Position numbers and translations under genes: made by a program | Assembly (NCBI GenBank): GCA_019745315.1 | Contig: JAIETH010000008.1 | Location: 1 to 34,132 of the forward strand | DNA length: 34,132 nucleotides | Source of the DNA: Patescibacteria group bacterium | Lineage (GTDB): Bacteria > Patescibacteriota > Minisyncoccia > Phycocordibacterales > UBA918 | Reading direction: 5' to 3' | In this document: positions 2,002 through 14,852 of the stretch, piece after piece | How the letters are laid out: each line of letters begins with the position of its first letter | How positions within the stretch are numbered: position 1 is the first letter of the stretch | The notes under the pieces: generated by a model | Database searches by the model: none | Told to the model about the DNA's origin: nothing | Seen by the model: the letters and a program-made list of their open reading frames with translations, nothing else

Positions 2002-3753
2002 CTACGCGTGAGCCTTTGTTTTTATTTCAGTGGTGAGTTTCTCTACAAGTGCTGCGAGAGTTATCTTTTCTGTTGCACCTGCGCGTGACTCAAGTGTGAT
2101 ATCTTCTGCCTCAACTTCTTTATCGCCAATCACCGCAAAGTAGGGAAGGCGTGCAGTTTTTGCTGCTCGTATTTTCTTCCCAAGATTCTCGTCACTTTGA
2201 TCCATCTCTGCGCGAATTCCAGCGTCTTTGAGAGCTGAAAGAATAGTCCGTGCACACGCTTCATGGGCTTCGCCTACCGTCACTATACGAATCTGCTCAG
2301 GAGCAAGCCATAGAGGGAAGTTACCGCCATAATGTTCGATGAGGATTCCGATAAACCGATCAGGAGAACCAACGAGTGCGCGGTGGATCATAACAGGAGT
2401 TTTCTTTTGTCCGTCTGAGTCTATATACGTAAGTCCAAAGCGTGATGGCATACTAAAGTCGAGCTGTACGGTTGAAATTTGCCATGTGCGACCGAGTGCA
2501 TCAACTGCCATAATATCGATTTTCGGTCCATAGAATGCAGCTTCTCCTTCTGCAGATTTAAATTCAATACCTTTTTCTGTAAGAAGTTTTTCAAGGATAC
2601 CTTGAGAGTTTTCCCATACAGAGTCATCGCCAAGATACTTTTCTTTTTTTTGAGGATCGCGGAGTGAGAGGCGCATCCAGTATGATATTCCGTATGTTTT
2701 GAGCGCTTCTTCGATTGCGTTTAAGATTTGAGATATCTCTTCTTCTATCTGATCAGGTCGACAAAATACGTGTCCGTCGTCTTGTGCAAAAGCGCGGAGG
2801 CGGGTGAGCCCTGAAAGCTCTCCAGGACGCTCGTCGCGATACAGGTTTGCAAAGTCAGAATAGCGAATTGGAAGATCTCTATAGCTCCGCATTTGAGACG
2901 CATAGATTTGAGTGTGCTGCGGGCAATTCATCGGTTTCATAAACATCTCATCTTCAACATATTGTGATTTCACAGAGAGCATATCTTCTTTGTATTGATC
3001 ATAGTGACCAGATATTTTGAAAAGCTCCCCTTTATTTATGTTGGGTGTATGTACTTCTCCAAAGCCAAGCTTATTATTGAGCTCTCGGGAATAGCCTACG
3101 ACTGCATTGCGAACAGTGTTCCCTCGGGGTGTCCAGAGTGGCATTCCTGAACCCACAAGGTCAGAGAAGGTAAAGAGATCGAGTTCTTTACCAAGCTTGC
3201 GGTGATCGCGCTTTTTAGCTTCTTCTATTTGAGCGATATATTCATCAAGATCTGCTGCAGTCGCAAATGCGAGTCCATAAATTCGGGTGAGCATGGTATT
3301 TTTTTCGTCTCCTCGCCAGTATGCTCCCGCGATCGTCGTGAGTTTAAATCCATTCGGATCAATTTCTTTAGCAGGATTTTCTAGATGACCGCCACGACAG
3401 AGGTCAGTATATTTGCCAGACGTGTAGAGTGTGATCTTTTCTCCTCGAGCTTCAATTTCGTTTATGAGTTCAATTTTGTATTGATTGCCTTTATAGAATT
3501 CACGTGCTTCGTAAGCCGTTACTTCTTTGTGCTCAAAAGACGTCCATGATGAAAACGTCTTACGCATCGTTGTTTGTATCTTTTTCAGATCTTCATCAGT
3601 TGGTTTTTCTCCATCTCCAAAATCAAAGTCGAAGTAGAACCCCGTATCTATTGCGGGTCCAATAGTATGTTTTGCGTGTGGGTAGTGTTGCAATACAGCG
3701 GCTGCAAGGAGGTGGGCAAGGGTGTGGCGTAGGTTGTTGAGGTTGTTTTCCAT
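2002..3753 (-). CDS. thrS: Threonyl-tRNA synthetase lacking the N-terminal TGS domain
   Basis: HTLAHL and CRGGH editing-domain motifs, class II catalytic core (NCPQHTQIYASQMRSYRDLPIRYSDF, RLRAFAQDDGHVFC), anticodon-binding C-terminus. Confidence 0.95.
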   Translation of the reverse strand: MENNLNNLRHTLAHLLAAAVLQHYPHAKHTIGPAIDTGFYFDFDFGDGEKPTDEDLKKIQTTMRKTFSSWTSFEHKEVTAYEAREFYKGNQYKIELINEIEARGEKITLYTSGKYTDLCRGGHLENPAKEIDPNGFKLTTIAGAYWRGDEKNTMLTRIYGLAFATAADLDEYIAQIEEAKKRDHRKLGKELDLFTFSDLVGSGMPLWTPRGNTVRNAVVGYSRELNNKLGFGEVHTPNINKGELFKISGHYDQYKEDMLSVKSQYVEDEMFMKPMNCPQHTQIYASQMRSYRDLPIRYSDFANLYRDERPGELSGLTRLRAFAQDDGHVFCRPDQIEEEISQILNAIEEALKTYGISYWMRLSLRDPQKKEKYLGDDSVWENSQGILEKLLTEKGIEFKSAEGEAAFYGPKIDIMAVDALGRTWQISTVQLDFSMPSRFGLTYIDSDGQKKTPVMIHRALVGSPDRFIGILIEHYGGNFPLWLAPEQIRIVTVGEAHEACARTILSALKDAGIRAEMDQSDENLGKKIRAAKTARLPYFAVIGDKEVEAEDITLESRAGATEKITLAALVEKLTTEIKTKAHA

Positions 3754-3782
3754 GATTTTGTTTCTAAAGATGATAATAAAAA

Positions 3783-3826
3783 ACGTCCGAGCAAAAAATC
3801 GAGGGATCGATTTTTTGCTCGGACGT
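3783..3826 (-). terminator. T-box intrinsic terminator hairpin
   Basis: ACGTCCGAGCAAAAAATCGA / TCGATTTTTTGCTCGGACGT perfect 20-bp inverted repeat followed on the minus strand by a T tract. Confidence 0.92.
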
Positions 3827-3950
3827 ATCTCAAGCGAGACCGCGGTTCCACCGAGCTTCTGGTCACTAGAGCGACCAGCGCTTTGGAGTCAGATTAGGCA
3901 TTTCTGCGTCTTTTGTGACTGATGGTTGGTAGCCACCACAATCTCTGATA
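3783..3950 (-). promoter_or_regulatory. T-box riboswitch (tRNA-Thr specific, transcription-terminating) controlling thrS
   Basis: Minus strand: specifier hairpin TTGTGGTGG-CTACCAA-CCATCAGTCACAA (ACC at 3930-3928), Stem III CTGGTCG/TGACCAG, GCTCGGTGGAACCGCG T-box, antiterminator GCTCGG/CCGAGC, then a 20-bp terminator. Confidence 0.9.
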
Positions 3951-3955
3951 CCTGT

Positions 3956-3983
3956 ATCCTAGCGCGAAGAAGAGGAATGTCAA
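3956..3983 (-). promoter_or_regulatory. thrS T-box promoter
   Basis: Minus strand TTGACA (3983-3978), 16 nt, TAGGAT (3961-3956); predicted start about 3949, immediately before the specifier hairpin. Confidence 0.65.
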
Positions 3984-4055
3984 TATTTGAAATACCGAGA
4001 ATAGGGGTGTGGTACTATAACCTAGTACTTATTTAAATTTTTAAAGCGTCACCAT

Positions 4056-4646
4056 ATGTCTATGCGTAGTTTTATCCGAAGATCCTTTCTAGGAATCTTT
4101 TGTTTTACTTTTTTTCTTATTCCTCTCGTTCAGGTAGACGCTGCGCAAGAAAAAAATTATTTAGGCGCAGGAATGATTGGGTTAATACGTAATGATGCCA
4201 ATGCAATTTTCTTCCCACCTTCAGGATGGAAAGAAAATAAATCTACAAAAGATATTTTTGTTGAATTTGCTCTGAAATCTAAAAAAGGTATTCCTACTTT
4301 TATCACCGTTGATGAAGTAAGTGGTGTCTATATCTCTGGCAATTACACAGAAATAAAAACATGGAGTGATTTGACTCGACTGTATATTCCTAGTCTAGAG
4401 AAAGATACTGAATACACACATGTCATCAATAAAAGCTTTATGATCGATGGTGTTCAGGGTATCAGGGTAGATACTCCTGGCACAGACGCTCATATGATAA
4501 ATATTTATTTTGAAAAATTCGGTAAAGTATATGTCTTCCATGCGCAGGTTTCTGCTGACAAATGGAAGGTCAAAAAAACTCAATTAGGAATTGAGCAAAG
4601 CATACAGGTATTGAGTGTGCGGAGACTCGGTATCGAGCGACAGTAG
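4056..4646 (+). CDS. Hypothetical secreted protein
   Basis: N-terminal signal peptide (MSMRSFIRRSFLGIFCFTFFLIPLVQVDAAQ), isolated ORF followed by a terminator. Confidence 0.7.
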   Translation: MSMRSFIRRSFLGIFCFTFFLIPLVQVDAAQEKNYLGAGMIGLIRNDANAIFFPPSGWKENKSTKDIFVEFALKSKKGIPTFITVDEVSGVYISGNYTEIKTWSDLTRLYIPSLEKDTEYTHVINKSFMIDGVQGIRVDTPGTDAHMINIYFEKFGKVYVFHAQVSADKWKVKKTQLGIEQSIQVLSVRRLGIERQ

Positions 4647-12557: not shown

Positions 12558-14852
12558 ATGTACTTGAAGTCTTTGGAGGTGAATGGCTTTAAATCTTTTG
12601 CAAAAAAGAGTGATTTGGAGTTCTCTACTGCTATCACCGCAATTGTGGGTCCAAATGGTTCGGGAAAATCTAATACGGCTGAGGCATTTCGTTTTGTGTT
12701 AGGAGAACAATCTCTTAAGAGTATGCGTGGGAAGCGAGGAGAGGACATGATCTTTAATGGATCGACGTCAGTCAGTCGCTCAAACAGGGCGTCAGTAAAA
12801 ATAACGCTTGATAATACTGCAAAGCATTTCCCTATTGATTTTGATGAGATTACGATTGAGCGTACCGTGTATCGCGATGGAACGAACGAGTATGCCTTAA
12901 ACGGTGGCAAGACTCGCCTTAAGGATGTACAAGAGCTTCTCGCGTCAGCTAATATAGGTTCAACAGGGCATCATATTATTTCTCAAGGAGAAGCCGATCG
13001 CATCCTTACCTCAAGTGCTCGCGAGCGACGCGAGATGATCGAGGATGCGCTCGGGCTCAAGGTATTTCAATATAAAAAAGCAGAGAGCGAGCGAAAGCTT
13101 GAAAAAACAACTGCTAATATTGCACAAGTAGAATCGCTCCGAAGAGAAGTGACACCACACCTGCGTTTCCTTGAGCGTCAGGTCAAGAAGATAGAAAAGT
13201 CTCTTGAGGTTCGCGACGAACTCACAAAAATGTATGTGGAGTACTTGAAGCGTGAAGATGAGTATTTGGCATTTAATCAAGATAGACTCTCTGAAGCTCT
13301 TTGTGCTCCGCGTGCTGAATTGGCGCGTCTTGAAACTGAGCTTGCAAGCGCAAACGCAAAACTTGCTGCTGCTGAGAAAGATGAAAAGCGCGATGCGCTT
13401 GTGCTGATAGAAGGTCAGTTGCGTACCGTTCGTGATGAACGCCAGCAGCGCGCGCGTGAAATTGGAAAGCTCGAAGGTCAGATAAGTTATCTTGAGCGGA
13501 GGATTGCTGAGGCTGAGCGACGCCGTGGAGAAACAGTGGCTCGTCCTGCAATTACATATGAGAGGGTTGAATATGCGATATCGAGCGCTGAAAATCTTGC
13601 TGATCAAGCGCGTGGAGAGGTGAATGTAGAAGTTCTGCAGAGACTGATAACTAACATTGTCAGTGTTCTCCGCTCATTCTTGAATGAGGCGGGAAGTACG
13701 AATGAGTCATCTGTTCCCGAAAACAATGATAGTGAAGAGCGCGATACTCTCGTTGCACAAAAAAAAGAACTCGATGAATCTCTCCTTGGTCTTGATAAAG
13801 AAGAAGAAATGCTGCGCCTTGATTACGAAAGCCTCAAGATTTCTATTGAAGCGGAATTAAGTGAGAGCAGAGAGGCGGAGCGTGAGGTATTCCGTATTAT
13901 GGCGCGTGAACAAGAATTAACGCAGCTTATTTCTCGAACTGAAAGAGATCAGGAGCTTGTAGAGCGTGATCGAAATGAATTTAAGCGAGAACTCGAAGAA
14001 GCCGTTGCCCTTATTGGGCGTTCTGTAACAGACTACTTCTCACATGTAGTTGTCGATAGTATGGGAGAGCCGCTTACGCGAGAAATGATTGCACAAGAAG
14101 ATCGCAGTCATCAAATTGAGCGTAGACGTCTTCTTGAAAAAATGAAGATTCGCCTCGAAGAGTTAGGGGCTGGAGCAGCAGATGATATTTTGAAAGAGTA
14201 TGCTGAAGCAAAAGAGCGCGATGAATTTTTGGCACGAGAAATCGCTGACCTTGAAACGTCAGTTGCGTCACTTCAATCGTTGATTACAGAACTTTCTGCC
14301 GAGCTTAATAATCGATTCAAAGATGGTATTGATAAAATAGCAGAAGAGTTTACGAAGTTTTTCATACTGATGTTTGGTGGTGGTACTGCAAGTTTGCGTC
14401 GCATTAAGCCAAAAGAAGTTAAGAAAAAAGATACCGATACCGATATGGCACACGTCTTGGCTAGCAATGGGGAAGAGGAAGTGGATGAATCTATTGAAGA
14501 AGGTATTGAGATAGATGTATCACTTCCTAATAAGCGTGTGCGAGGCCTTGAGATGCTTTCAGGAGGTGAGCGCGCCCTTACCTCTATTGCGCTTATATTC
14601 GCTATGAGCCAGGTTAACCCGCCACCCTTTGTGATTCTTGATGAGACAGACGCTGCGCTCGATGAGGCAAATAGCAAGCGCTATGGAGATATGATTGAAG
14701 CGCTTTCGAAGAGGTCTCAGCTTATTTTGATTACACATAACCGTGAGACTATGTCACGCGCAGGAGTTCTCTACGGAATCACTATGGGAGGCGATGGGGT
14801 TTCTAAAATTCTTTCAGTGAAGTTTGATGAGGCAGTTGAGGTTGCCAAATAG
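12558..14852 (+). CDS. smc: SMC-family chromosome segregation ATPase, short form
   Basis: GPNGSGKSNTAEAFRFVLGEQSLKSMRGKRGEDMIFNGS Walker A region; C-terminal LSGGERALTSIALIFAMSQVNPPPFVILDETDAALDEAN; coiled-coil-like middle. Confidence 0.92.
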   Translation: MYLKSLEVNGFKSFAKKSDLEFSTAITAIVGPNGSGKSNTAEAFRFVLGEQSLKSMRGKRGEDMIFNGSTSVSRSNRASVKITLDNTAKHFPIDFDEITIERTVYRDGTNEYALNGGKTRLKDVQELLASANIGSTGHHIISQGEADRILTSSARERREMIEDALGLKVFQYKKAESERKLEKTTANIAQVESLRREVTPHLRFLERQVKKIEKSLEVRDELTKMYVEYLKREDEYLAFNQDRLSEALCAPRAELARLETELASANAKLAAAEKDEKRDALVLIEGQLRTVRDERQQRAREIGKLEGQISYLERRIAEAERRRGETVARPAITYERVEYAISSAENLADQARGEVNVEVLQRLITNIVSVLRSFLNEAGSTNESSVPENNDSEERDTLVAQKKELDESLLGLDKEEEMLRLDYESLKISIEAELSESREAEREVFRIMAREQELTQLISRTERDQELVERDRNEFKRELEEAVALIGRSVTDYFSHVVVDSMGEPLTREMIAQEDRSHQIERRRLLEKMKIRLEELGAGAADDILKEYAEAKERDEFLAREIADLETSVASLQSLITELSAELNNRFKDGIDKIAEEFTKFFILMFGGGTASLRRIKPKEVKKKDTDTDMAHVLASNGEEEVDESIEEGIEIDVSLPNKRVRGLEMLSGGERALTSIALIFAMSQVNPPPFVILDETDAALDEANSKRYGDMIEALSKRSQLILITHNRETMSRAGVLYGITMGGDGVSKILSVKFDEAVEVAK

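Follow-up and report, generated by a model that had tools for sequence, protein, structure and literature searches.

Antitermination by uncharged tRNA is the established logic of T-box riboswitches (PMC7583486). Transcriptional T-boxes generally need a long Stem I with an elbow contact, while ultrashort ones are translational, and the same review asks whether any T-box works without a K-turn (PMC7583486). In Escherichia coli, the thrS operator lies upstream of its gene and consists of anticodon-arm-like hairpins, a likeness to the leader described here. The anticodon-like loop of that operator is bound by ThrRS and translation is blocked, whereas the present leader carries a codon and a terminator.

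The window analysed here is a stretch of 34,132 nucleotides from a Patescibacteria group bacterium (contig JAIETH010000008.1). Its thrS gene is preceded by a leader that is very probably a T-box, as judged by every available sequence test, and that represents a transcriptional, Thr-specific variant, recurrent in Patescibacteria, in which Stem I is an ultrashort junction and Stem II is absent; its response to tRNA is inferred. With canonical transcriptional T-boxes (RF00230; leaders with a long Stem I, glyQS among them) it shares the UGGN bulge, the A1/A2 antiterminator with a G-U pair, a purine-flanked Stem III, a mutually exclusive terminator and a specifier matched to the gene. However, it lacks the long Stem I, the elbow-binding double T-loop and the K-turn consensus, and remains below threshold in Rfam. 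Its specifier lies in an apical loop, whereas the canonical one lies in an internal loop, and the thrS class has no Stem II.

Translational T-boxes whose Stem I is short or ultrashort, such as those of actinobacterial ileS (cited in PMC7583486), likewise have no elbow-binding motif, and the short type also places the specifier in an apical loop. In contrast to them, the thrS leader has a transcriptional terminator, Thr specificity and a four-way junction, and is without the Stem II S-turn and the IIA/B pseudoknot. The original prediction had likened the leader to the actinobacterial ultrashort ileS class; the apical-loop specifier agrees, but the expression platform here is a terminator. The glyQS T-boxes without Stem II are similar in this absence and in their GC-rich codon-anticodon pairing, yet they retain a long Stem I, whereas Stem I of the thrS leader is short as well.

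The thrS leader and its expression platform

The features of the locus are listed in Table 1. The original prediction, made from the sequence alone, had comprised the promoter, the ACC hairpin, Stem III, the UGGA antiterminator and the 20-bp terminator reusing CCGAGC, and all of these held, each being seen in the sequence.

Table 1. Coordinates of thrS, its promoter and the leader elements in the window
Feature	Positions	Strand	Evidence or remark
Promoter TTGACA-16-TAGGAT	3956..3983	(-)	sigma-70 type; -35 TTGACA at 3983-3978, -10 TAGGAT at 3961-3956, spacer 16 nt; 10/12 consensus positions matched; predicted start about 3949
P1 5' strand UCAGAGAUUG	3939..3948	(-)	basal helix of Stem I, 2-purine bulge; partner 3889-3897
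P2 specifier arm UGGUGG-CUACCAA-CCAUCA	3920..3938	(-)	6 bp + 7-nt loop
Specifier codon ACC (Thr)	3928..3930	(-)	inside loop CUACCAA 3932-3926
P3 hairpin GUC-ACAAAA-GAC	3908..3919	(-)	repeated two-hairpin folding in relatives
P4 hairpin GCA-GAAA-UGC	3898..3907	(-)	same folding basis as P3; 2 nt between P4 and P1 in nearly all two-hairpin leaders
P1 3' strand CU-AAUCUG-A	3889..3897	(-)	pairing kept or covarying; RNAalifold support; G9-C flipped to C-G in L120
Stem III + flanking purines (AAGCG ... AA)	3857..3884	(-)	CUGGUC/GACCAG 3878-3859
Antiterminator 5' side: A1 GCUCGG, T-box bulge UGGAACC, A2 GCG	3841..3856	(-)	A1 covariation
Antiterminator 3' side: A2 CGU (G-U pair), A1 CCGAGC	3817..3825	(-)	G-U pair in relatives
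Intrinsic terminator, 20 bp, CCGAGC reused, then T-run	3783..3826	(-)	-32.0 kcal/mol hairpin
thrS, threonine--tRNA ligase	2002..3753	(-)	TIGR00418, 661 bits, E 1.5e-198

Among the relatives, the first base of P1 (C1) follows the end of the -10 element by 7-11 nt in 47 of 51 leaders, with 8 nt in 27, while shuffled sequence scatters. From this promoter position, and without mapped 5' ends, we infer that the transcript begins at or just before P1. The linker from P1 to RRRxG measures only 3-12 nt; together with a start at P1, it therefore leaves no room for a distal elbow-binding part, Stem II or a IIA/B pseudoknot. The earlier claim that the start site excludes a long Stem I thus held, on promoter spacing in relatives. 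The thrS leaders, which start at P1, have no distal double T-loop to stack on the tRNA elbow, and the P1-to-RRRxG interval is too short for a Stem II carrying an S-turn and a IIA/B pseudoknot. Judged by inspection of the consensus only, the base of Stem I has no K-turn either; P1 has a 2-purine bulge, and the strand facing it, CUAAUCUG, lacks GA.

The RRRxG-Stem III purine motif, a known T-box feature (PMC7583486), was observed in 43 of the 52 leaders and AA ahead of A1 in 50 of them, and in all leaders C1 and the end of A1 are 111-172 nt apart. Four of the six A1 pairs show change on both sides, and the A2 position that forms a G-U pair is G-U in 32/52 leaders and G-C in 16/52. The region 3786-3832 folds at -25.3 kcal/mol (z -8.1), and none of 200 shuffles was as good. 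The antiterminator (-15.3 kcal/mol, against -32.0 kcal/mol for the terminator hairpin) has the CCGAGC strand in common with the terminator. Sequence and covariation show an A1-bulge-A2 antiterminator that is mutually exclusive with the terminator, as the definition of a T-box demands. Rfam microRNA matches on the terminator arm were dismissed as chance.

Elsewhere in the window, the two long open frames adjoining thrS (40-1935 and 4056-4646, both plus strand) had no match in NCBIfam or Pfam. At 12558-14852 (plus strand), an SMC-like protein of 764 aa is encoded; the SMC profile has 1181 positions, and the match is split into two stretches.

Stem I and the specifier arm

In the 52 distinct leaders, a mean of 5.81 of the six P2 pairs are kept, compared with 4.07 after shuffling (maximum 4.40 in 1000 shuffles), and every one of the six pairs shows a both-side change in at least one sequence. 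Within the loop CU-ACC-AA, the codon, preceded by U and followed by A, sits where a tRNA anticodon loop holds its anticodon. The specifier hairpin originally described held in part, as only its inner 6 bp (UGGUGG/CCAUCA) are conserved. The outer UUGUG/CACAA pairing was rejected; it is not conserved, and its bases are shared between the basal helix, where their partner is AAUCUG (3895-3890), and the hairpin GUC-ACAAAA-GAC.

The outermost pair of P1 is present in 42/52 leaders, against 23.7 in shuffled sequences, and none of 1000 shuffles equalled this value. Compensatory changes in P1 were found at loci not selected on P1 sequence, from C-G to U-A in L162, L164 and L257 and from A-U to G-C in L163. 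Furthermore, P1 (N0 C1 A2 G3 A4 with U C U G N) is recovered independently by RNAalifold, which also finds a G-C pair beside P2. A P1 register without the bulge (AGAUU/AAUCU) was ruled out by the CAGAAGUUG and CAGAAAUUG variants and the conserved outer pairs. The bulge may be placed at A4-R5 or R5-R6, which the data do not separate.

The interval between P2 and P1 is not conserved in sequence, yet it folds with a mean z of -2.2 and forms two hairpins in 41/52 leaders, compared with 3/52 when shuffled. The junction gaps are 0,0,2 in 27/52 leaders, so that most often there are no spare bases between the helices and two before P1, while P3 and P4 are free to vary in sequence and length. Because of this two-hairpin folding and the compensatory changes in P1, Stem I is probably best drawn as a 5'-terminal four-way junction formed by P1, the specifier arm and two variable hairpins, a drawing that rests on comparison and corrects the simple-hairpin ultrashort Stem I proposed at the outset. 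By nearest-neighbour energy, the 5' domain of the window has a minimum-energy fold of -14.6 kcal/mol, compared with -9.5 kcal/mol for the four-way junction. This fold differs from the junction, and P1, P3 and P4 therefore rest on comparison among relatives. P3 and P4 are backed by repeated folding, with no column-by-column covariation test.

An alternative is a T-box with a free specifier hairpin as Stem I, in which P1, P3 and P4 are incidental spacer. The lowest-energy fold of the window, which has no junction, and the free variation of P3 and P4 speak for it; the compensatory changes in P1, its recovery by RNAalifold, the two-hairpin excess and the junction gaps speak against it, and we consider it unlikely. 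Leader-peptide attenuation through Thr codons would find support in a short AUG frame in the window leader (MPNLTPKRWSL). It can be practically ruled out, as the frame holds a single Thr codon and overlaps P4 and P1, which vary in relatives without keeping the AUG.

Two further observations concern P1 itself. Its internal loop (purine-purine-UU opposite UAA; window 3939-3945 with 3893-3897) is conserved in all thrS leaders beyond what pairing needs, and may be a structured motif docking on the codon-anticodon helix. As to an IDTM, the AGAGA string in P1 was judged a coincidence, since the bases are paired and the string varies (AGAAG, AGAAA).

Distribution and specificity in Patescibacteria

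The Rfam search suggested with the original prediction gave only a weak match, as RF00230 scored 19.9 bits on the window leader (E 0.031 in a 601-base search) and did not reach the gathering cut-off of 93. This gathering score is a curated annotation cut-off and not a biological feature; no genome among the 59 or the 188 searched exceeded it. In the sweep of 59 related genomes, RF00230 gave sub-threshold matches in 39, and the matched leaders form two main classes, one upstream of thrS and the other upstream of aspS. Leaders of the thrS class have in common CAGAGAUUG, a stem with the loop CUACCAA, CCUAAUCUG, AAGNG, Stem III, AA and GGUGGAACCGCG. A gapped-pattern search with one genome per species returned 51 records, nearly all from Patescibacteria, including Kaiserbacteria, Taylorbacteria, Adlerbacteria, Campbellbacteria, Nomurabacteria and others. 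Because AAUCUG, UACCA and the UGGA box were required by the pattern, their conservation in the main set is partly imposed. A pattern scan of viral contigs gave no match, and a search of the window genome for further T-boxes with GGTGGNACCRCG returned the thrS site alone. Records of the same family are named Candidatus Kaiserbacteria / Paceibacterota, which supports the earlier description of the genome as CPR-like.

For a census independent of the RNA, all thrS genes in the family were identified at the protein level, and the DNA upstream of them was then examined. Among 44 thrS genes with a locus, 41 had enough upstream sequence, and the leader was present in 35 of these; 34 have the UGGA box and the ACC hairpin, and L260 has the Stem I domain with an assembly gap at the position of the box. 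Since the same leader precedes 35/41 evaluable thrS genes of the family, it is not a product of chance. The remainder comprises two genes with UGGA and no ACC arm and four with no T-box; along with the Rfam score far under gathering, these are among the points against the T-box reading. Most thrS genes sampled from other families of the order are without the leader, and related versions occur in other orders and classes of the phylum. The two leaders without the ACC hairpin (L014 and L244), from genomes G011 and G006 within a single genus, still have UGGA and the terminator and carry GUUGCGAUUGUA... in its place; either another specifier layout or a loss is possible.

A segment-anchored alignment of the 52 leaders had 96.9% of pair cells paired, against 29-41% in slid controls, and both-side changes in 154 cells, where shuffled data gave 49 (0/500). 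Covariation, which the original prediction had put forward as a check, was found in P1, P2 and the antiterminator helices, and the specifier follows the gene. A decayed T-box, with its tRNA-binding part lost and its terminator constitutive, would be consistent with the score far under the Rfam cut-off, the reduced genome and the absence of Stem II and elbow-binding parts. However, every remaining part is conserved and covarying, the specifier and UGGN included, and this explanation is most improbable.

With respect to specificity, tRNA-Thr(GGU) of the window genome has U73 and a 3' UCCA complementary to the leader UGGA. Its anticodon loop, AUGGUAA, allows 3 bp with ACC, and we infer that loop-loop pairing could extend to 5 bp with UACCA (U33 and A37). 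Among the RF00230 matches, the thrS leaders carry UGGA in 19/19 cases, and the aspS leaders UGGC in 23/27 and UGGU in 4. ACC occurs in every aligned leader; its presence is partly imposed by the search pattern, and it is also found in thrS leaders detected through RF00230 or the thrS gene alone. Specifier and discriminator track the downstream gene, as Thr ACC/UGGA, Asp GAC/UGGC, Gly GGC/UGGA and Ile AUC/UGGU, and the trpB leaders of other Patescibacteria have a UGG specifier and UGGC. Several downstream gene names in other Patescibacteria were confirmed, while others were read from the protein start. Sequence comparison shows that UGGN matches the tRNA discriminator and that the specifier is cognate to the gene, in line with T-box criteria. 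P1, P2, A1, A2, the strand shared with the terminator, and the agreement of codon and UGGN with the gene are shown by sequence and covariation. The T-box identity, Thr specificity, apical-loop specifier and transcriptional terminator of the original prediction held on this comparative evidence.

A ThrRS-bound operator as in E. coli thrS, with P2 mimicking the anticodon arm of tRNA-Thr and the enzyme repressing its own gene, was also considered. P2 does have anticodon-arm geometry, with a 7-nt loop whose triplet is preceded by U and followed by A. However, the loop carries the codon ACC and not an anticodon NGU, the aspS leaders carry GAC and not GUC, and UGGN, the antiterminator and the terminator are left unexplained. 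We therefore regard such an operator as very improbable.

Across Patescibacteria, T-boxes with the specifier in a short apical loop are found repeatedly upstream of thrS, aspS, glyS, ileS and other genes; the occurrence in a reduced CPR-like genome, originally singled out, is not a one-off. The aspS leaders of the same family (L011, L017, L021, L047, L048, L050 and others) present GAC in a short apical loop (GCGG-CUGACAC-CCGC), many have an S-turn-like Stem II (GAAGAA ... AGUAGAAC) and a IIA/B-like segment, and they apparently form a second T-box class. A strict 7-nt-loop GAC scan of the aspS leaders found only 9 hairpins because many seem to have 6-nt loops (CUGACA), and the 7-nt geometry is not claimed for every gene class. 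In other Patescibacteria, the glyS leaders L179, L184, L191, L242 and L243 have GGC in short apical loops and UGGA, and L184 resembles a three-way junction without Stem II. Apparent T-boxes also precede proS and non-synthetase genes such as argG and trpB (L190, L198, L202, L220, L227). Stem II is absent from the thrS leaders and at least one glyS leader and apparently present in the leaders of aspS and ileS, a distribution that fits the idea that strong codons can dispense with Stem II.

Proposed mechanism and its implications

The leader is very likely a T-box that attenuates transcription and detects uncharged tRNA-Thr(GGU) through a junction Stem I, although no expression or binding data are available and the tRNA response is inferred. 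Transcription would start at P1, and the four-way-junction Stem I would present ACC in its 7-nt anticodon-like loop. The leader loop and the tRNA anticodon loop would then kiss, with 3 bp to the anticodon and up to 5 when U33 and A37 take part, and the 3' UCCA of uncharged tRNA would pair with UGGA and stabilise the A1/A2 antiterminator. Held in this state, the antiterminator would prevent the terminator, and RNA polymerase would read into thrS. Charged tRNA-Thr could not stabilise the antiterminator, and the 20-bp terminator would stop transcription. We assume that the specifier arm is aimed at the discriminator by P1, P3, P4 and the conserved purine bulge, which would replace the K-turn, Stem II and elbow contact.

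In the open-access literature searched, we found no report of T-boxes together with Patescibacteria, Parcubacteria or CPR, and the phylum Patescibacteria goes unmentioned in a 2025 riboswitch survey; subscription papers and preprints were outside the search, and priority is uncertain. T-box regulation is apparently widespread in a bacterial group where the Rfam cut-off found none in the sampled genomes. A bolder reading, which we hold to be probable, is a distinct architectural T-box class widespread in Patescibacteria, with a 5'-terminal four-way junction and an anticodon-arm-like 7-nt codon loop, controlling transcription without elbow contact, K-turn or Stem II. If this class is real, tRNA would be captured by the loop-loop kiss and the NCCA contact alone. 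Leaders that lack the elbow motif, the K-turn and Stem II but have a terminator would be a natural minimal tRNA-sensing transcription switch, and the thrS leaders offer a direct test of which tRNA contacts a T-box needs.
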